This document shows, piece after piece, positions 55,972 to 63,964 of a stretch of DNA of 64,000 bases. Source of the DNA: Methanobrevibacter sp. (lineage in GTDB: Archaea; Methanobacteriota; Methanobacteria; Methanobacteriales; Methanobacteriaceae); NCBI RefSeq assembly GCF_030539875.1, contig NZ_JAUNXI010000001.1:62001-126000 (forward strand). Direction: 5' to 3'. Position numbers and translations under genes: made by a program. Under the pieces are notes generated by a model. The model was not told the origin of the DNA and searched no databases. It saw only the letters and a list, made by a program, of their open reading frames with translations. Numbering within the stretch: the stretch's first letter is position 1; each line of letters starts with the position of its first letter.

Positions 55972-56519
55972 AACCAACTTCTCCCGGAGAATGTTGAAAT
56001 ATCTTTCTCTGTTAAATTGGTTTAATGGAAAAACATTTAAATTAATTTCCTTTGTTGTCTTAAGACATATGCAGTATTGAGTTATTTCAATAAATAACTC
56101 ATAATTTTTTATTTTTTTTATATTTGGTGCATTATTGAATGCATTTTTTTTTAAATCTTATCTCACTTTTGCTTTTTTTACTGTCTGCGGTTGCAGGGTA
56201 GAATTTTTCTTGTTAAACATTTATTTTTCCGATTAGCTTATTTGCACTTCCATATCTTAAAAATTCATAAGTAAAGTTTTTTAATTAATCTGATGTGCAG
56301 TATCATTGTTCAGTAAAATAATAACGATATATTGATTTAATTTAATTAAAACAAGTCATTTTATAATTTATATATGATTTAATTCATTGTTATTTAATTA
56401 ATTTTTATTTAATGTTATATTTGTTAATTATTTTTTCTTTTATTTTTTTTAGAAAGATTATTAAATAACTTAGTGAATATATATTCCTATCGAATATTTT
56501 TTTTATTTGGGGGTTTGTA
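55972..56519. other. 548-base AT-rich spacer before the ABC importer
   Basis: T-rich runs occur throughout. A 20-codon frame at 56139-56201 looks like a signal peptide followed at once by a stop, possibly chance. The importer promoter should lie near 56470-56500 (TATATATTC run). No RNA or riboswitch form, such as a cobalamin or molybdenum-cofactor element, could be recognised. Confidence 0.4.
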
Positions 56520-57623
56520 ATGGAAAGGAAAATTAAAGTTATAGTTTTAATGTTAGTTGTTTTGGTGGCGATTGGCGTTGCTACTCATTTATTTTTAAGT
56601 CCCTCCACTACCGGCAGTGAAGGTTCTCAAAATATAACTGATATGATTAATAGGACAGTGGAAATACCTGCCGTTAAAAATGTTGTAGCCACTGCTCCTC
56701 CGATGACTACTGTGGTTTATATGATTGCTCCTGATAAATTAAAAGCGGTTAACTTCCAGTGGACTGATGAAGAGTTGAAATATGTGCCGAATGAATATGC
56801 AAACTTCCCCGTTGTTGGCGGTTGGTATGGTACTCAGGATGGAAGTTATGAAGAATTTATCGCAGCAGAACCTGATGTTGTAATAGAATCCATTGATGAA
56901 GGCAGCGGAGGAGATTTGTCCACTGTTAATCAGCGTCAGGAAAAATTCGGTAAAATTCCTGTTATTGGAGTTCGTGACACTACCAATGTCAAAAAAGTAG
57001 GAGAATCCATACTGTTCATGGGAAAAGTTATAGGGGCTGAAGATAAAGCCAATCAGCTTAATGATTTTAATAATAAATATTTGAATATTGTACATGATAA
57101 ATCATCTAAATTGTCTGATGGTGAAAAAAAATCGGTTTATTATGCCTGCGGCAGTGATGGTTTACAGACTTATCCTTCAGGTGCTTCTCACGGTCAGTTA
57201 ATTGATTTGGTAGGTGGAAAGAATGTTGCAGATTCTATAAATCAGGGCAATACTACAACAGGTGCACAAATATCTATCGAACAGGTCATTAAATGGAATC
57301 CTGATTTGATTATTACCAGTGATATGGATTTCTATAATAAAGTTTATAATGATTCAAATTGGGCGCATATTAAAGCAGTTCAGAATAAAGAGGTTTACCT
57401 GTCACCACAATCTCCGTTCAAATGGTTTGATAGGCCTGTTGGTGCTAATATGATTATTGGCGTTCCATGGACTGCAAAAGTAATTTATCCTGATGATTAT
57501 AAAGAATTCAACATGGTTGATGTTACTAAAGAGTTTTATAGTAATTTTTATCATTTTGATTTAAGCGATGATCAGGCAAGGGATATTCTAATCAGTTCAG
57601 GACTTGATGAATCAAATTTTTAG
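56520..57623 (+). CDS. ABC importer substrate-binding protein (FecB/BtuF-like)
   Basis: 367 residues. An N-terminal membrane anchor (residues 5-28) and an outside domain of the helical-backbone metal/cofactor-binding class: MINRTVEIPAVKNVVATAPP, AAEPDVVIES, DLVGGKNVADSI and WNPDLIITSDMDFYN. No lipobox cysteine, so a membrane-helix anchor is likely. Binds an iron chelate, cobamide or metal oxyanion. First gene of a four-gene set. Confidence 0.88.
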   Translation: MERKIKVIVLMLVVLVAIGVATHLFLSPSTTGSEGSQNITDMINRTVEIPAVKNVVATAPPMTTVVYMIAPDKLKAVNFQWTDEELKYVPNEYANFPVVGGWYGTQDGSYEEFIAAEPDVVIESIDEGSGGDLSTVNQRQEKFGKIPVIGVRDTTNVKKVGESILFMGKVIGAEDKANQLNDFNNKYLNIVHDKSSKLSDGEKKSVYYACGSDGLQTYPSGASHGQLIDLVGGKNVADSINQGNTTTGAQISIEQVIKWNPDLIITSDMDFYNKVYNDSNWAHIKAVQNKEVYLSPQSPFKWFDRPVGANMIIGVPWTAKVIYPDDYKEFNMVDVTKEFYSNFYHFDLSDDQARDILISSGLDESNF

Positions 57624-57633
57624 GGTAGTGATT

Positions 57634-58647
57634 ATGGATAAAGAATCAAGGGAAATTATAAGTATCTTGCTTTTGGTTTTCTTACCGGTTATTTTATTTT
57701 TCGCATCATTTCTGCTTGGAAGATATCCCATTAGTCCGGTTGATGTTATAAAAACAATATTGTGTCCACTATTTCCTCAATTGGAAGTTTCATCAACAAT
57801 AACCACCATTGTTTTTGAAATAAGGCTTCCAAGGATAATTGCAGCATTTGTTGTTGGAGCATCACTTTCAATGGCTGGAGCAGCATTTCAGAGTATTTTT
57901 AAAAACCCTCTTGTATCTCCGGATTTGCTTGGCGTATCTAATGGTGCAGGTTTTGGAGCGGCATTGGCTATTTTGTTAAGTGGTGTTGGCTTTGTAACTC
58001 AGATATTTGCGTTTATATTTGGAATCATTTCAGTTTCAATTACTTATCTGATTTCAAAAGCTTATAAGGCCGGCGGAATATTGGTCTTAGTATTGTCAGG
58101 GGTTGCCATTTCGGCATTTTTCAGTGCGTTAATTTCTGCTATAAAATTCATTGCAGATCCTGATGATAAGCTCCCTGAAATAGTATACTGGTTAATGGGA
58201 AGTTTAGCTTCTGTAACTACAGACCAGCTGATAATGATTCTCATTCCGATAATTATAGGTTTTATAATTCTTATAACTCTCAGATGGCACATGAATCTAC
58301 TTGCGATGGGTGATGAAGAAGCACAATCATTAGGCCTTAATCCGACAAAAGTCAGGTTATTGATTATTGCGGGATGTACTTTACTCACTTCCGCTTCAGT
58401 ATCTGTAAGCGGTATTATCGGCTGGATTGGACTGGTTATTCCTCACATGACTCGTATGATTGTCGGTCCTGATAATAAAATATTGATTCCTGCATCATTA
58501 AGTTTAGGTGCAAGTTTCCTATTATTGATAGATAATATTTCACGTGCATTAATATCAATAGAAATTCCGATTGGTATTCTGACAGCCATTATTGGTGTGC
58601 CGATATTTTTATATCTACTTAAGAAGGGGTATTCAGAATGGGCTTAA
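57634..58647 (+). CDS. FecCD-type ABC permease
   Basis: 337 residues with about ten membrane helices. SMAGAAFQSIFKNPLVSPDLLGVSNGAGFGA and GIIGWIGLVIPHMTRMIVGPD are the family signatures. Start at 57634; the longer frame overlaps the upstream gene. Its end overlaps the ATPase start by ten bases. Confidence 0.93.
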   Translation: MDKESREIISILLLVFLPVILFFASFLLGRYPISPVDVIKTILCPLFPQLEVSSTITTIVFEIRLPRIIAAFVVGASLSMAGAAFQSIFKNPLVSPDLLGVSNGAGFGAALAILLSGVGFVTQIFAFIFGIISVSITYLISKAYKAGGILVLVLSGVAISAFFSALISAIKFIADPDDKLPEIVYWLMGSLASVTTDQLIMILIPIIIGFIILITLRWHMNLLAMGDEEAQSLGLNPTKVRLLIIAGCTLLTSASVSVSGIIGWIGLVIPHMTRMIVGPDNKILIPASLSLGASFLLLIDNISRALISIEIPIGILTAIIGVPIFLYLLKKGYSEWA

Positions 58648-59441
58648 ATGATAAACTGTTTGATGTTAAAAATATTTCATTTTCCTATGGCGATGTGGAA
58701 ATTTTTTCAAAAATTAGCTTTTCTGTTGAAAAAGGAGACGTATTATGTATTTTAGGTCCGAATGGAACTGGAAAAACAACTTTAATCAAGTGTCTTAACG
58801 GATTGCATGATATAAATGATGGTGAAATTTTAATTAATGGCGAAAATATCAAAAAATTATCTTTTAAGGAAATATCAAGACACATCGGTTACATTCCTCA
58901 GTCCCACGTTCCGTCATTCCCATTTAAAGTTTTGGATGTTGTAGTTATGGGCAGGGCACCATACCTGAATCTAACGGATTCTCCCAAAAAGGAAGATATT
59001 GAAATTGCCATAAATTCCCTAAAGATTTTAGGTATTGAAAATCTTAAGGATAAGGAATACACCAATTTAAGCGGTGGAGAAAGGCAGCTGGTGTTTTTAG
59101 CAAGGATATTGTGTCAGCAACCCGACATTCTGATATTGGATGAGCCAACTTCACATCTGGATTTTGGAAATCAAATCAAATTTTTAGAAATTGTCGATAA
59201 TCTGGCAAAAGAAGGTCTTTCAATTATAATGACATCCCATTTTCCTGATCATGCATTTTTAAGTTCAAATAAAGTGGCAATAATGAAAGAAAAAAAATTC
59301 ATAGATTTTGGAAGTCCGGATGATGTTGTAACTGAAGAAAATTTAAAAGAAGCTTATTCAATTGATGCGAAATTAATTGAATTGGATAATGAAAGGAAAG
59401 TCTGTGTTCCTTTAAAAACAAATTTAGAATTAGATTTATAA
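58638..59441 (+). CDS. ABC transporter ATPase (FecE-like)
   Basis: 267 residues. Walker A GPNGTGKTT, Q-loop GYIPQSH, signature LSGGERQLVFLARIL and Walker B ILILDEPTSHLD are intact. Powers the FecCD-type permease encoded just upstream; ten-base overlap indicates translational coupling. Confidence 0.95.
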   Translation: MGLNDKLFDVKNISFSYGDVEIFSKISFSVEKGDVLCILGPNGTGKTTLIKCLNGLHDINDGEILINGENIKKLSFKEISRHIGYIPQSHVPSFPFKVLDVVVMGRAPYLNLTDSPKKEDIEIAINSLKILGIENLKDKEYTNLSGGERQLVFLARILCQQPDILILDEPTSHLDFGNQIKFLEIVDNLAKEGLSIIMTSHFPDHAFLSSNKVAIMKEKKFIDFGSPDDVVTEENLKEAYSIDAKLIELDNERKVCVPLKTNLELDL

Positions 59442-59450
59442 GGTGATTAT

Positions 59451-60020
59451 ATGAATGAACAAGATTATGATGAACAGTTAGCAAAAGCAGCAGAATTTCA
59501 TGGCCATATTTGTGGAGGAATTGCAATCGGAACTAAATTGGCAATGTACGGTCTTGAATTACTTGGATTGGGATTTAATCAAAGACATAAAAACCTCATT
59601 GTCTTTTTGGAAATTGATAGGTGTATGTCTGACGCAGTTCAGTCTGTTACCGGTTGTTCCATGGGTAAAAGAACCCTTAAACAAATGTATTATGGTAAAT
59701 TTGCAGCCACATTCTATAATACAGATACTGATGAAGCATTAAGGATTACTGATGCTGATGCAAATAAAAAGTTCAAGGATGAAGAAACAAAAGATGAAAT
59801 GATTGCTCGTTTTAGAAGAACTCCTCCTGAAGAACTGTTTAAAGTAGATAGGGTCAAAATAGAATTGACTCCTGGAGACATGCCTGGCAAACCATATACA
59901 ACCACATTCTGTTCTGTATGTGGTGAAAAGGTATCTGACGGTCGTCATGTTCTTAGAGGTGGAAAACCGGTCTGCAAGTCATGTGCTCAAGAGTCATATT
60001 ATGAATTGATTGAAGATTAG
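59451..60020 (+). CDS. FmdE family protein
   Basis: 189 residues. AEFHGHICGGIAIGTKLAMYG and EIDRCMSDAVQSVTGCSMGKRTL form the FmdE core, and the C-terminal CSVCGEKVSDGRHVLRGGKPVCKSC is a zinc finger. FmdE copurifies with molybdenum formylmethanofuran dehydrogenase, the first enzyme of methanogenesis. Nine bases after the ABC ATPase, so in the same operon; this suggests a link between the imported metal or cofactor and FmdE. Confidence 0.9.
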   Translation: MNEQDYDEQLAKAAEFHGHICGGIAIGTKLAMYGLELLGLGFNQRHKNLIVFLEIDRCMSDAVQSVTGCSMGKRTLKQMYYGKFAATFYNTDTDEALRITDADANKKFKDEETKDEMIARFRRTPPEELFKVDRVKIELTPGDMPGKPYTTTFCSVCGEKVSDGRHVLRGGKPVCKSCAQESYYELIED

Positions 60021-60029
60021 TTTATAACC

Positions 60030-60075
60030 TTATTCTTAATTCTTTTTATATTTTTTATTTTTTTAATTTTTATTT
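60030..60075 (+). terminator. T-rich terminator after the FmdE gene
   Basis: A series of T runs without a clear stem begins shortly after the stop, typical archaeal-type termination, separating this operon from the next. Confidence 0.4.
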
Positions 60076-60235
60076 CTAATTCCTTTTTATTGCTGTTTTA
60101 TTGATTTTTAGACTATTTTTTTTAATTTGGATTAGTTTTACTTCATTAATTTATTTTTTAATAAATAATTGCGATATGTTTATATATTCATATTTAGAAA
60201 TATTATTCCATAACAAAGAATTTGGGTGTTGAAAA

Positions 60236-60889
60236 ATGGATTTGATTGGGGGTTATTTACTAATTGCTTTATTGTTATTTTCAGCTAATTTAGCTCTTTT
60301 ACTTGGCAATTATCAGATTAATAATAAAAGGACAGCAGCTATTGGCTTAATATTTTCAATAATGTTATTTTTAGCGATGAGCGTCTCCAAATATTTAAGT
60401 AATCCATTATCCTTTCTAACTGATTATTTTAACTATTTATTTTTCATTATTTCAATAATCCTATTTGTTTTAATGGTAATTTATATGAAAAATAGTAATA
60501 ATTTAGTTTATTTGATTTATTCAATTTCAGTAATGTTTTTTATTTCAACTTTATTATTGTCATCTCAGGCAAATTTATTATTTTCTGATGTGATTATTTA
60601 TTCTTTGTTAGTTTTAATTACTGTATTTATTGTTTATCAAATTTCAAAGTTTTTAACTCATGCAAAAAGACAATACCCTGTATTAGTTGGCGAATTTATG
60701 AGTTTATTTTCAATTCTGGTCTTTATTTTTGCTCTAACATATGATTCTACAAGAAATATTGACTACACCATGTTTAGTTCATTTTTGATTTTAACTCCAA
60801 CTTACCAGTTAATTTATCTTATAATTGGAATAGTTGCACTGATGATTTTGGGTGTCCTTTTAAATGAGAGTAAAGGAGGAAATTCATGA
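60236..60889 (+). CDS. polytopic membrane protein, first gene of the MotA/DUF2149 operon
   Basis: 217 residues, about seven membrane helices with short loops; the final helix ends LGVLLNESKGGNS. No catalytic motif or known family recognised. GGTGTTG ribosome binding site. The gene overlaps the next by four bases (ATGA), so it is coupled to the proton-channel gene and probably part of the same complex. Confidence 0.7.
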   Translation: MDLIGGYLLIALLLFSANLALLLGNYQINNKRTAAIGLIFSIMLFLAMSVSKYLSNPLSFLTDYFNYLFFIISIILFVLMVIYMKNSNNLVYLIYSISVMFFISTLLLSSQANLLFSDVIIYSLLVLITVFIVYQISKFLTHAKRQYPVLVGEFMSLFSILVFIFALTYDSTRNIDYTMFSSFLILTPTYQLIYLIIGIVALMILGVLLNESKGGNS

Positions 60890-61527
60890 TAATTCAAGGA
60901 ACTGAAACATTAACTTCATTGATTCATATACTTTCGGAAAGTTTATTGACTCCAGTTGTCGTTTTAATTATTATATCTGTTGTAATAGTTATTTTGTCAT
61001 TTGGCGGTCTTATTAATGAGTACATATCAAGAAAGCCAATCAGTTCAAATGAATTGGAGCAGTTAATAAGAAATGTTTCATTTTCAAATGATGTTTCAAA
61101 GCTGAGAAATGAGATTGAAAATAGTAATCTGTTCACTTTTCAAAAGGAAATCCTGATTAAAATAGCTAATAATTATGATATAGGTCAGGATGCAAGAAAA
61201 GCGCTGGCTAGTGAACTAATTTCAAATGAAGAAACAAAATTAATTAAAAAGACTAATAAAACTGATATTCTGATAAGAGTAGGTCCGATTTTAGGTCTTT
61301 TGGGAACATTAATTCCTTTAGGTCCTGGTCTGGCGGCACTGGGTACCGGAGATATTTTAACTCTTGCCCAGTCACTAACTATTGCATTTGATACAACTGT
61401 AACAGGATTGTCTGTCGGGGCATTGTCTTATTTAATATCAAAATTTAAAAAACAGTGGTATGAATCAGATTTGATTAATGTCGAATCTATTGTTGAGGCG
61501 GAACTTGAAGCTATAAACAGGTGGTAG
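60886..61527 (+). CDS. MotA/TolQ/ExbB family proton channel
   Basis: 213 residues. One helix near residues 24-45, a cytosolic segment, then the family core ILIRVGPILGLLGTLIPLGPG and SLTIAFDTTVTGLSVGALSYLI forming two helices. The TolQ/ExbB fold uses proton or sodium flow, with a partner aspartate, to energise distant envelope proteins. The partner is the DUF2149 protein four bases downstream. Function in this single-membrane archaeon is unknown. Confidence 0.9.
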   Translation: MIIQGTETLTSLIHILSESLLTPVVVLIIISVVIVILSFGGLINEYISRKPISSNELEQLIRNVSFSNDVSKLRNEIENSNLFTFQKEILIKIANNYDIGQDARKALASELISNEETKLIKKTNKTDILIRVGPILGLLGTLIPLGPGLAALGTGDILTLAQSLTIAFDTTVTGLSVGALSYLISKFKKQWYESDLINVESIVEAELEAINRW

Positions 61528-61531
61528 ATTT

Positions 61532-61834
61532 ATGCTTAGAAAAAGACGAAGGATTTCACAGGACTATGATGATGATCCTATGGGAGGATTAAATAACCTT
61601 TCGGATGCTATGCTTGTTTTAGCTTTAGGATTTTTAATCTTTGCAATTATGGCTCTGTCTGTAAATCCTGATTTAGTTTCAAATCAGCAGACCACACAAG
61701 ATGTATCGACTGCAAATACGTTTACCCAAAATTACACTAGTGCCGGAGGTATTGAGGATAGCGGATATAGTGAAGTGGGTAAAGTTTACGAAGATCCAAG
61801 TACCGGTAAACTGGTTCTTGTATCTGGAGGGTGA
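61532..61834 (+). CDS. DUF2149 protein, TolR/ExbD-like partner
   Basis: 100 residues: a basic N-terminus, one membrane helix (about residues 28-47) containing LSDAMLVLALGFLIFAIMAL, and a small outside domain ending GYSEVGKVYEDPSTGKLVLV. The aspartate at the start of the helix is placed like the ion-carrying Asp of ExbD/TolR. DUF2149 in archaea travels with MotA/TolQ/ExbB genes. Confidence 0.85.
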   Translation: MLRKRRRISQDYDDDPMGGLNNLSDAMLVLALGFLIFAIMALSVNPDLVSNQQTTQDVSTANTFTQNYTSAGGIEDSGYSEVGKVYEDPSTGKLVLVSGG

Positions 61835-61876
61835 TTTATATTTATTAATTAACTAGAACATTTAAGGAGGTGAAAA

Positions 61877-63964
61877 ATGAATAAGAAATGTTTCGTGATT
61901 ATATTGATTCTGTGTGCATTAGTTTCATTAAATTTCTGTGCCGCTCACGAAATTGATAATTCAACAGAGATTATTGCTCAGCAGGACAATTCTACCGGAA
62001 TTCTTGAAAGCAGTAATGCTGAGATTCTGTCTGCATCAGATAAGCCGAATACTTATATTGATGCTGTAAGCAATACTACATTTGACGTGGTCGGCGAGTA
62101 TTTCAAAGTGAAATTGTCTGATGGGAATAACAAATCAATTTCTAATGTTAAGGTGGTATTTACAGTAAATGGAGTCAGTTATACTAAAAATACTGATTCC
62201 AAAGGTATTGCTTCACTTCAAATTAGACTGGCTGATGGTTCATATAAGATTACTTCAAAATTCGCTGGTAATTCCATGTATAAGGCGTCATCATACACAA
62301 CTAAGATTACTATGAATAATACTCGTGTTGTTGAAAGCGGTTTGACCAACGCCGAGATTCAAAATATTATTGATAATGCTAAAGTAAACAATATCATTTT
62401 GTTTAAAGGAGCCAGCTATTCAGATATTAATCTTGTAATCACTAAAAGTTTGACTCTACTTTCCAATGTTAATACTGTGTTAAAATCTACTTCAAATTCC
62501 CCAGTCATTACTATTAAAGGAAAAAATGCTTCTTTAACTTCCGTTAAAGGCTTTAACATACAGGGTAATGGTGATGGTGTCAAAGTAGATGGATCAGATT
62601 ATGTGACTATTATTAAAAATGACATTACAACCAGAGGCAGCGGGATTGTTGCATCAAATGTAAAATATCTAAATATTACCAAAAATAATATTGTTAAGAA
62701 TGGCAAATGCGGAATAATCCTCTCTTCAGCCAACAACTCTTATATTGTTAATAATAAGATCACAAATAATGGTGAAAACGGTATTGTTTTGACAAAATCC
62801 AACATGATTTATATTCATGAAAATACTGTTTCAAATAATGTTCGAAACGGCATTCTTCTAACTAATAAGTATAACGGATTCAGTCATAAGACAGGTCCTC
62901 AAAATGTATTTATTACCAAGAATACTGTCAATAAAAATAAATGGGACGGTATTTCAGTGGATTTTGCAGGAGATAATATAAATATTAGGGGAAATACTAT
63001 AGATTCAAATGCGGATAATGGAATTTCTCTTAATAAAATCGGACATAACAACATTCAGTCCAATGTTATTACCAACAATTATGTGGGCATAAAATTCGCT
63101 GAAGAATATGCAAAACCTAAAAACCAGAAAATTGAATATAATGCAATTTATGGCAGCTCTCATGTTGAAATTGAAGCTAAAGAGACATATGCTACTGAAA
63201 ATGGTGAAAAGTTAACTGTTGGTGATAATTGGTATACTGACAATGGATTGCTATGTCCTAAAATCAGTACAAATAATTTAAAGTTTACTGTAACACAAAT
63301 TGGTAAAAACCAATTTCAGGCATCATTTGTTGATTCAAAAGGAAATATTGCAACCTTGCTTCCTGATAGGGTTTTAACTTATAAGACTAATGACGGCAAA
63401 ACATTTTCTGTCACAATAAGTGGAGGTATTGGAACGTTCACTGTAGATGCAAAAGATGCCGACATTATTAAGGCCACTGTAGACCGCAGTAGTAGAAAAA
63501 ATGTTTTTGATTCAAAAACACCTTCTTCTGCTCCAATCAACGGCCAATCTCCAACATATAATCTGCCAAGTATTCCTCAATATGGTTTATTTGAAGATAT
63601 TGGAAATGGAGGAGGTTCTGGAGATGGCAACGGTCAAGGATCAAACGGCAATGCCAATAGAGGTAACGAATCTTCACATCAGTCTAGTGACAATGCTGGA
63701 AATAGTTCCCATAGTCAAAAAATGGAACCGAATGACAGTCCTGCAAATCAGGTAAATGATGTTTCACAAAGTTATGACTCATTAGATGTGGCACAGGCAA
63801 GTGCATCTGAAAGCAGCGGTGCAAATGCAGATTCTGGTTCTACTGCAAAACAGATTATTATAGATGATGAAATTTTTAAGGTTAAAGGTACATTCTTAAT
63901 CATTCTGTTAATAATTTTAACAATCGGTTTGTATTACCGTGATGATATAAAAGATATTATCTAA
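61877..63964 (+). CDS. adhesin-like surface protein with Ig-like and beta-helix domains
   Basis: 695 residues. Signal peptide (1-23), an Ig-like domain (about 60-150: VKVVFTVNGVSYTKNTDSKG, LADGSYKITSKFAGN), and a right-handed beta-helix (about 155-440) with NNxIxxNxxxGIxL repeats. A second beta-rich domain follows (450-535), then a Ser/Asn/Gly-rich spacer (560-660), and a C-terminal membrane helix (about 668-688) with the short tail YYRDDIKDII. AGGAGGTG ribosome binding site. It follows the DUF2149 gene by 42 bases, so it may be cotranscribed and functionally linked. Confidence 0.9.
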   Translation: MNKKCFVIILILCALVSLNFCAAHEIDNSTEIIAQQDNSTGILESSNAEILSASDKPNTYIDAVSNTTFDVVGEYFKVKLSDGNNKSISNVKVVFTVNGVSYTKNTDSKGIASLQIRLADGSYKITSKFAGNSMYKASSYTTKITMNNTRVVESGLTNAEIQNIIDNAKVNNIILFKGASYSDINLVITKSLTLLSNVNTVLKSTSNSPVITIKGKNASLTSVKGFNIQGNGDGVKVDGSDYVTIIKNDITTRGSGIVASNVKYLNITKNNIVKNGKCGIILSSANNSYIVNNKITNNGENGIVLTKSNMIYIHENTVSNNVRNGILLTNKYNGFSHKTGPQNVFITKNTVNKNKWDGISVDFAGDNINIRGNTIDSNADNGISLNKIGHNNIQSNVITNNYVGIKFAEEYAKPKNQKIEYNAIYGSSHVEIEAKETYATENGEKLTVGDNWYTDNGLLCPKISTNNLKFTVTQIGKNQFQASFVDSKGNIATLLPDRVLTYKTNDGKTFSVTISGGIGTFTVDAKDADIIKATVDRSSRKNVFDSKTPSSAPINGQSPTYNLPSIPQYGLFEDIGNGGGSGDGNGQGSNGNANRGNESSHQSSDNAGNSSHSQKMEPNDSPANQVNDVSQSYDSLDVAQASASESSGANADSGSTAKQIIIDDEIFKVKGTFLIILLIILTIGLYYRDDIKDII

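Follow-up and report, generated by a model that had tools for sequence, protein, structure and literature searches.

What does a conserved ExbB/TolQ-type motor do at the single membrane of a walled archaeon? Such motors are explained by their work on the outer membrane, and a methane-making gut archaeon has a cell wall of pseudomurein and no outer membrane. The question is raised by a DUF2162-MotA-DUF2149 gene cassette that lies next to the gene of an anchored surface protein in a stretch of 64,000 nucleotides from Methanobrevibacter sp. (contig NZ_JAUNXI010000001.1, positions 62,001 to 126,000 of the forward strand), hereafter called the window. The initial annotation, made from the sequence of the window, had proposed that the motor moves, exposes, stretches or remodels the surface protein as an adhesin, or that it drives uptake across the wall. 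This proposal is partly supported: the tie between motor and surface protein is real, the unit to which both belong is larger, and uptake fits better than movement of an adhesin for its own sake. Tentatively, and with somewhat less than even confidence, we regard the eight genes at 56520–63964 as one functional unit of three modules, in which the motor would act on the surface protein for the uptake of molybdenum or tungsten (Mo/W), a substrate that the initial annotation had not proposed. That the three modules work together is very probable; that the motor acts on the anchored protein we consider an even call. The best reading is a motor with interchangeable anchored clients, used here for Mo/W acquisition.

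The open reading frame (ORF) list of the window gives four ORFs on the plus strand at 60236–60889, 60886–61527, 61532–61834 and 61877–63964, which are spaced by a 4-base overlap, a 4-base gap and a 42-base gap, in that order and exactly as first described; the importer-FmdE operon (56520–60020) lies directly upstream of them on the same strand. The assignments as a seven-helix protein, a MotA/TolQ/ExbB channel, a DUF2149 protein with an aspartate at the start of its helix and an anchored immunoglobulin (Ig)/beta-helix protein were borne out by Pfam, AlphaFold2 (AF2) models and alignment. The seven-helix protein (60236–60889) reaches 31.8 bits with DUF2162 (PF09930), which is below the cut-off of 34.4, and its paralogues in the same genome reach 52–226 bits; its position in the cassette and its seven helices agree with the family. 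The AF2 model has seven long helices with a mean predicted local distance difference test (pLDDT) of 85.5. Comparison of this fold with the PDB yielded no match at E < 0.001 and hence no functional hint, and a search of the literature at hand found no paper on DUF2162. The protein is the constant third member of the cassette, in line with the earlier idea that the polytopic protein is a third subunit. The channel subunit (60886–61527) was identified by PF01618 (36.3 bits, above the cut-off of 22.9) and alignments. The DUF2149 subunit (61532–61834) matches PF09919 with 40.5 bits, above the cut-off of 27.1, and its Asp25, at the start of the single transmembrane (TM) helix, is invariant in an alignment of 12 orthologues. 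By its position, Asp25 would work like the corresponding feature of ExbD/TolR, with a putative role in ion passage. In Pfam the subunit is unmatched by the ExbD family, DUF2149 being the only family that matches at E up to 0.1, and profiles built from close orthologues of DUF2149 and MotA gave nothing useful against PDB sequences.

The genome has five MotA-type genes. The DUF2149 partners in its three other DUF2149 motors are canonical, with scores near 76 bits versus 39 for the window copy, and the MotA tree places that copy in a separate group of Methanobrevibacter sequences. A motif survey of DUF2162 found PCxCC in none of 63 proteins of the window subfamily versus 19 of 19 DUF2162b copies. 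Judged from its sequence, the window motor is a subfamily distinct from the three other DUF2149 motors of the genome.

The fourth gene (61877–63964, plus strand) encodes the anchored surface protein, which was recognised by its Beta_helix match (73.4 bits, cut-off 25.9; the Ig match is sub-threshold), its AF2 model and its orthologues in three gene orders. The predicted order of parts is a signal peptide, an Ig domain, a beta-helix (about residues 155–420), a second Ig-like domain, a long linker of about 130 disordered residues and a TM helix (664–686). The fold of the beta-helix matches GH87, C5-epimerase, tailspike and NosD structures, and because these matches are generic we make no enzyme claim; membership in the NosD family was rejected, since the equivalog model gave 43.7, far below its cut-off of 300. 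The C-terminal tail with the TM helix (..DDE..KV.G...ILLI..I.LYYRDD..; 63797–63961, plus strand), defined by a profile and an alignment, is conserved, with a consensus across orthologues of roughly K.[IL].[IV]D[DE]E..[KR][IV].G...LLI..I..YYR[DE]D. A search of the whole genome with the tail profile found the window gene as its sole match (79 bits). The tail normally occurs once per genome, and orthologues with the same tail adjoin the motor in other clades; we therefore call this product the tail protein. A further, minus-strand gene for a C-terminally anchored beta-helix protein lies just past the window (L006, 9076–10626) in opposite orientation, and such a second protein is found near the tail protein in most relatives, either directly or a few genes off.

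The named relatives belong to Methanobrevibacter and come chiefly from the rumen and the gut; 67 genomes of this genus were surveyed. The tail protein is present in 42 of the 43 genomes with the motor and in 7 of the 24 without it (Fisher p = 1.6e-9, uncorrected for kinship). The unique tail and this co-occurrence reject a random neighbouring adhesin as the sole explanation. In 25 genomes motor and tail protein lie on one contig, and here the protein is adjacent in 11, directly upstream of the motor in 9 and directly downstream in 2, namely the window and G042 (L196); in the remaining 17 genomes the two are on different contigs, which is little informative. In most relatives the direct neighbour of the motor is the importer-FmdE operon. 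Because of this neighbourhood the link comprises three modules, not two. Class A genomes have the order importer-FmdE-motor, with the tail protein 17–34 kb upstream or on another contig, so that the refuting scenario of the initial annotation, an adhesin unlinked in relatives and a motor tied to another gene, is half true. Class B genomes have the order tail protein-motor-formate dehydrogenase genes, with importer and FmdE 10–16 kb upstream, and in class C (the ruminantium clade) the tail protein, often followed by another adhesin-like protein (ALP), precedes the motor. In L145 and L194 the order is importer-FmdE-tail protein, and the motor is absent from that place. Adjacency of the tail protein therefore occurs in three orders: protein-motor, motor-protein (window, L196) and importer-FmdE-protein (L145, L194). 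In the MotA tree the orders with the protein upstream are nearest to the paralogues. Class A forms a nested group that includes the window, and because of this nesting the window order is a rearrangement, shared with G042. With its unique tail, its occurrence in 42 of 43 genomes and its upstream position in the deepest branches, the tail protein is a specific companion of the motor, as the proposed link had implied. The region is full of unrelated ALPs. Behind the tail protein, class A genomes have a conserved group of genes, which encode a tocopherol-cyclase-like protein, a six-helix protein, 2TM proteins, a LytTR regulator and DUF3021 (L131, L132, L134, L136, L137, L139, L140, L142, L197).

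Importer and motor also share a promoter element. Pattern search located a 19-bp element, CGATAGGAATATATATTCA, upstream of the importer operon (56474–56492, minus strand) and another, CGATATGTTTATATATTCA, upstream of the motor (60172–60190, plus strand). The latter or a near match stands 59–73 bp before nearly all DUF2162 genes of the window subfamily, and the related element on the other strand stands about 43 bp before BtuF and is found at the importer position in 19 of the 25 loci that have BtuF. With at most one mismatch, the 1.82-Mb genome has only two copies of the joint pattern CGATANGNNTATATATTCA, one ahead of the importer and one ahead of the motor; shuffling of the 64-kb window gives 0.05 matches when up to two mismatches are allowed. 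Since the pattern was derived from the two window sites and contains a TATA box, the other genomes serve as an independent test: the 67 genomes hold 93 matches versus 5 for the pattern in reverse. Further sites recur before a ferredoxin gene and FwdF (412 bits, cut-off 375), that is, the tungsten formylmethanofuran dehydrogenase (fwd) operon. Eight loci of this type were inspected, in one of which (L192) the contig ends before the operon. In several relatives (L187–L193, L199) coaD is on one side of the element and the ferredoxin/FwdF operon on the other. In L145 and L194 it stands directly before the tail protein. The initial annotation had named a separate promoter for the adhesin as a sign against the link; what we find is that the motor itself has its own element and that, in these two loci, the same element precedes the tail protein. 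Several genomes have a palindrome near AAGTTATTTAAATAACTT in front of the importer promoter (window 56400–56520), which is a possible second operator.

The importer-FmdE operon consists of four plus-strand genes, for a BtuF/MolA-type substrate-binding protein (56520–57623; Peripla_BP_2, 78.6 bits), a FecCD-family permease (57604–58647; FecCD, 301 bits), an ATPase (58638–59441; ABC_tran, 112 bits) and an FmdE-domain protein with a C4 zinc finger (59451–60020; FmdE, 103 bits; zf-dskA_traR, 38 bits). Among solved structures the permease is most similar to MolB HI1471 (2nq2, 247 bits), followed by FhuB (180), HmuU (161) and BtuC (155), and MolC HI1470 (150 bits) is among the best solved matches of the ATPase. 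The MolBC-A system carries molybdate, and tungstate is also bound by MolA (PMC4031551); FmdE is named after the molybdenum formylmethanofuran dehydrogenase operon (PMC3087415). Downstream of the motor, sister genomes have ModA (194 bits, cut-off 62.5) and ModB (226 bits, cut-off 183), and other relatives have formate dehydrogenase genes. Putatively, the substrate is molybdate or tungstate, free or in a complex, for use in formylmethanofuran and formate dehydrogenases; we see the chances of Mo/W being the substrate as evenly balanced.

Published RNA sequencing of M. ruminantium M1 treated with lauric acid, in which 147 of 2280 genes changed, gave log2 rises of 2.06, 1.71 and 1.97 for mru_0251–0253, 1.73 for mru_0327, 1.56 for mru_0329 (MotA), 2.83 for modA and 2.04 for modB (PMC5816558). 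We assigned the mru numbers by gene order and by a 62-kb prophage on a genome taken as M1, a strain that carries such a prophage (PMC2812497). By this order mru_0251–0253 are the importer, 0254 FmdE, 0255 an ALP, 0256–0325 the prophage, 0326 an opposite-strand ALP, 0327 the tail protein, 0328–0330 the motor, 0331 an ALP and 0332 fdhC. With mru_0256–0325 being prophage, this is the class B/C order interrupted by a prophage. Importer, anchored protein, motor and modAB are thus induced together in M. ruminantium. The strongly raised mru_0326 (+5.04) was considered as client of the motor and rejected, because gene order gives mru_0327.

An anchored neighbour is also common at the paralogous motors, where the slot directly upstream of DUF2162 (or MotA) usually holds a large protein with a C-terminal TM helix. 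This protein is CobN-like in ten Methanobacteriales loci (L008, L156, L157, L161, L164, L166, L168, L170, L172, L173), carries an FmdE domain in L007 and L162 (with one small gene between) and in L169, and has 2187 residues in L165; the C3-type copies (L009, L160, L167, L171) have no anchored neighbour in the slot. A beta-helix protein thus stands, in class B, where HmuS-like proteins stand elsewhere, and this is our main reason for calling it the client of the motor. A chelatase client of the CobN/HmuS type is absent for the window copy and present at the paralogue on contig C12; a consistent tie of the motor to a chelatase, which had been named as an alternative, holds for the C12-type paralogues and not for the window subfamily. 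At that paralogue (L008, 7686–14562) an HmuSTUV-like operon is made up of a DUF2162 with PCxCC, MotA, DUF2149 and a CobN/HmuS-like protein that has a signal peptide and, at its C-terminus, a TM anchor. The CobN-like protein of this genome matches HmuS (9d26) best, with 311 bits versus 253 for CobN. The role of archaeal HmuS/CobN homologues has been called unclear on the ground that their species have no complete hmu operon (PMC12583661), and an HmuSTUV-like operon with such a gene bears on that role. On contig C2 (L007, 7536–12753) a second motor has two anchored proteins beside it, one of 949 residues in which FmdE domains are repeated and a small, Ser-rich one whose sequence begins ...AHPGHGS. 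Of the five MotA-type genes, the one on contig C18 (L010, 2646–5351; 96.7 bits) is ExbB-like in a more ordinary way and is clustered with an ExbD-like gene and an apparent F420 ligase gene, cofE. A motif, [SA]Y[ED][VLT], recurs 15–50 residues before the TM helix of anchored proteins with unrelated ectodomains (L007, L156, L157, L159, L162, L164, L165, L131–L145) and is a possible docking or processing signal; as a docking box it was considered, but it is not universal among anchored proteins. A DUF2149 search also led to gut bacterial clusters of Bacillota and Actinomycetota (L098–L103) with DUF2149, mostly MotA, and large surface proteins. BtuCDF genes are present in L099, L101 and L103, and in L099 a Big_2 (Ig) protein with a C-terminal TM helix directly precedes MotA.

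In the mechanism that we propose, the modules are a MolABC/BtuFCD-type importer with FmdE, an ion-driven DUF2162-MotA-DUF2149 motor and a wall-spanning, membrane-anchored surface protein. Gene content, orthology, co-occurrence and the shared promoter element come from computation and co-induction from published data; what we infer is that tail and motor touch, that energy passes between them and which substrate is taken up. Ions would pass between the MotA-type channel and Asp25 of DUF2149, and the motor would act on the C-terminal TM tail of the surface protein, as ExbBD does on TonB. The flexible linker of roughly 130 residues could then pass the motion to the Ig/beta-helix head, which, when moved, might capture or release the substrate, to be taken in by the binding protein and the importer. 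It is possible, though doubtful in this breadth, that single-membrane, thick-walled cells such as Methanobrevibacter, and possibly gut Bacillota and Actinomycetota, power metal or cofactor uptake in this TonB-like manner without an outer membrane, by an ion motor with interchangeable wall-spanning clients, here for Mo/W. To our knowledge, TonB-like powered uptake is not known in such cells. If the link to Mo/W is true, the first enzyme of methanogenesis would be supplied by this system in methanogens of the rumen and gut.

Several observations weigh against Mo/W uptake by such a three-module unit. One genome (G076) has the motor and no match to the tail, seven have the tail protein without the motor, and G015 lacks importer and motor, cleanly within a contig, while FmdE and the tail protein remain. 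Tail protein and motor are 17–34 kb apart in 13 of the 25 one-contig genomes and 575 kb apart in the complete genome G044. The motor has its own promoter element, so that a joint transcript with the tail protein is not implied, and the fwd operon of this genome is without the element at up to one mismatch. Lauric acid also induced about 25% of all ALPs (PMC5816558). The similarity to MolB ranks solved structures only and is no proof of substrate, and the best solved match of the binding protein is 4pag (165 bits), not MolA HI_1472 (71 bits); because the binding protein is not closest to MolA, Mo/W as substrate is an inference. It might be that the motor serves the importer and FmdE only, for example by energising substrate release from the binding protein or the wall, and that the anchored protein is just a neighbour in a region rich in unrelated adhesin-like proteins. 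In most loci the gene directly before the motor is indeed FmdE, an anchored protein being absent nearby, and the persistence of the protein in the seven genomes without motor would fit. However, the unique tail tracks the motor in all but one of 43 genomes, the branches nearest to the paralogues have the protein beside the motor, other motors too have an anchored client in the same slot, and a motor-type element precedes the protein in two genomes, so that we regard this explanation as unlikely, if still worth serious attention.

The substrate could also be a tetrapyrrole, a corrinoid or an iron complex handled by the same architecture. The hmu heme operon of Bacteroidota includes a homologous cassette, one of the paralogous motors of this genome has a client resembling HmuS, and the binding protein also resembles iron-complex proteins. 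Against this, the window copy has neither a chelatase nor the PCxCC of the chelatase-linked copies, the permease is nearest to MolB, and the element precedes fwd in relatives, which makes such a substrate rather improbable. If the motor had no part in uptake and instead moved, exposed or stretched the beta-helix protein in the service of adhesion or wall remodelling, this would agree with the specific companionship of the two and with the resemblance of the beta-helix to carbohydrate-active proteins (GH87, C5-epimerase, tailspikes), but it leaves unexplained the persistent linkage and promoter element shared with an ATP-binding cassette (ABC) importer as well as the ties to modABC, fwd and fdh, and we give it only a small chance. 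Least probable is a device against envelope stress, which would repair or tension the wall after membrane damage: the lauric acid induction alongside many ALPs is what one would expect of it, yet the promoter element specifically marks importer, motor and fwd rather than stress genes.

Compared with known systems, the Mo/W uptake unit proposed here is a variant of the HmuSTUV-like cassette, since the window has DUF2162, MotA and DUF2149 genes together. The Bacteroidota hmu operon, which serves heme acquisition with HmuS as de-chelatase, likewise combines a MotA-type HmuU, a DUF2149 HmuV and a membrane protein, HmuT, beside a large extracytoplasmic protein (PMC10434189, PMC12583661, PMC13227078). 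The window system differs in having no TonB-dependent receptor, HmuY or outer membrane, in its beta-helix/Ig client instead of a chelatase, in the attached importer and FmdE and in a DUF2162 without PCxCC. It resembles TonB-ExbB-ExbD and TolA-TolQ-TolR in three respects: one subunit is an ion channel, its single-helix partner has an Asp where the helix begins, and the anchored protein has a long, flexible linker. However, the anchor is C-terminal here and N-terminal there, DUF2149 departs from ExbD in being missed by the Pfam ExbD model, and there is no outer membrane; neither TonB nor a TonB-dependent receptor was found in the window cluster or the clusters of relatives, no genome-wide search having been made. 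MolABC (HI1470–1472) is likewise a type II ABC importer, with MolB as best solved match of the window permease, but the window binding protein is nearest to another protein, and MolABC includes no equivalent of the motor or the surface protein. NosDFY is also a membrane machine that acts on a right-handed beta-helix protein, although it is driven by ATP and not by ions. Finally, the ALPs of Methanobrevibacter also carry Ig and beta-helix domains behind a signal peptide, but most of them are anchored N-terminally or via a C-terminal wall domain, whereas the window protein has a C-terminal TM tail that occurs once per genome.

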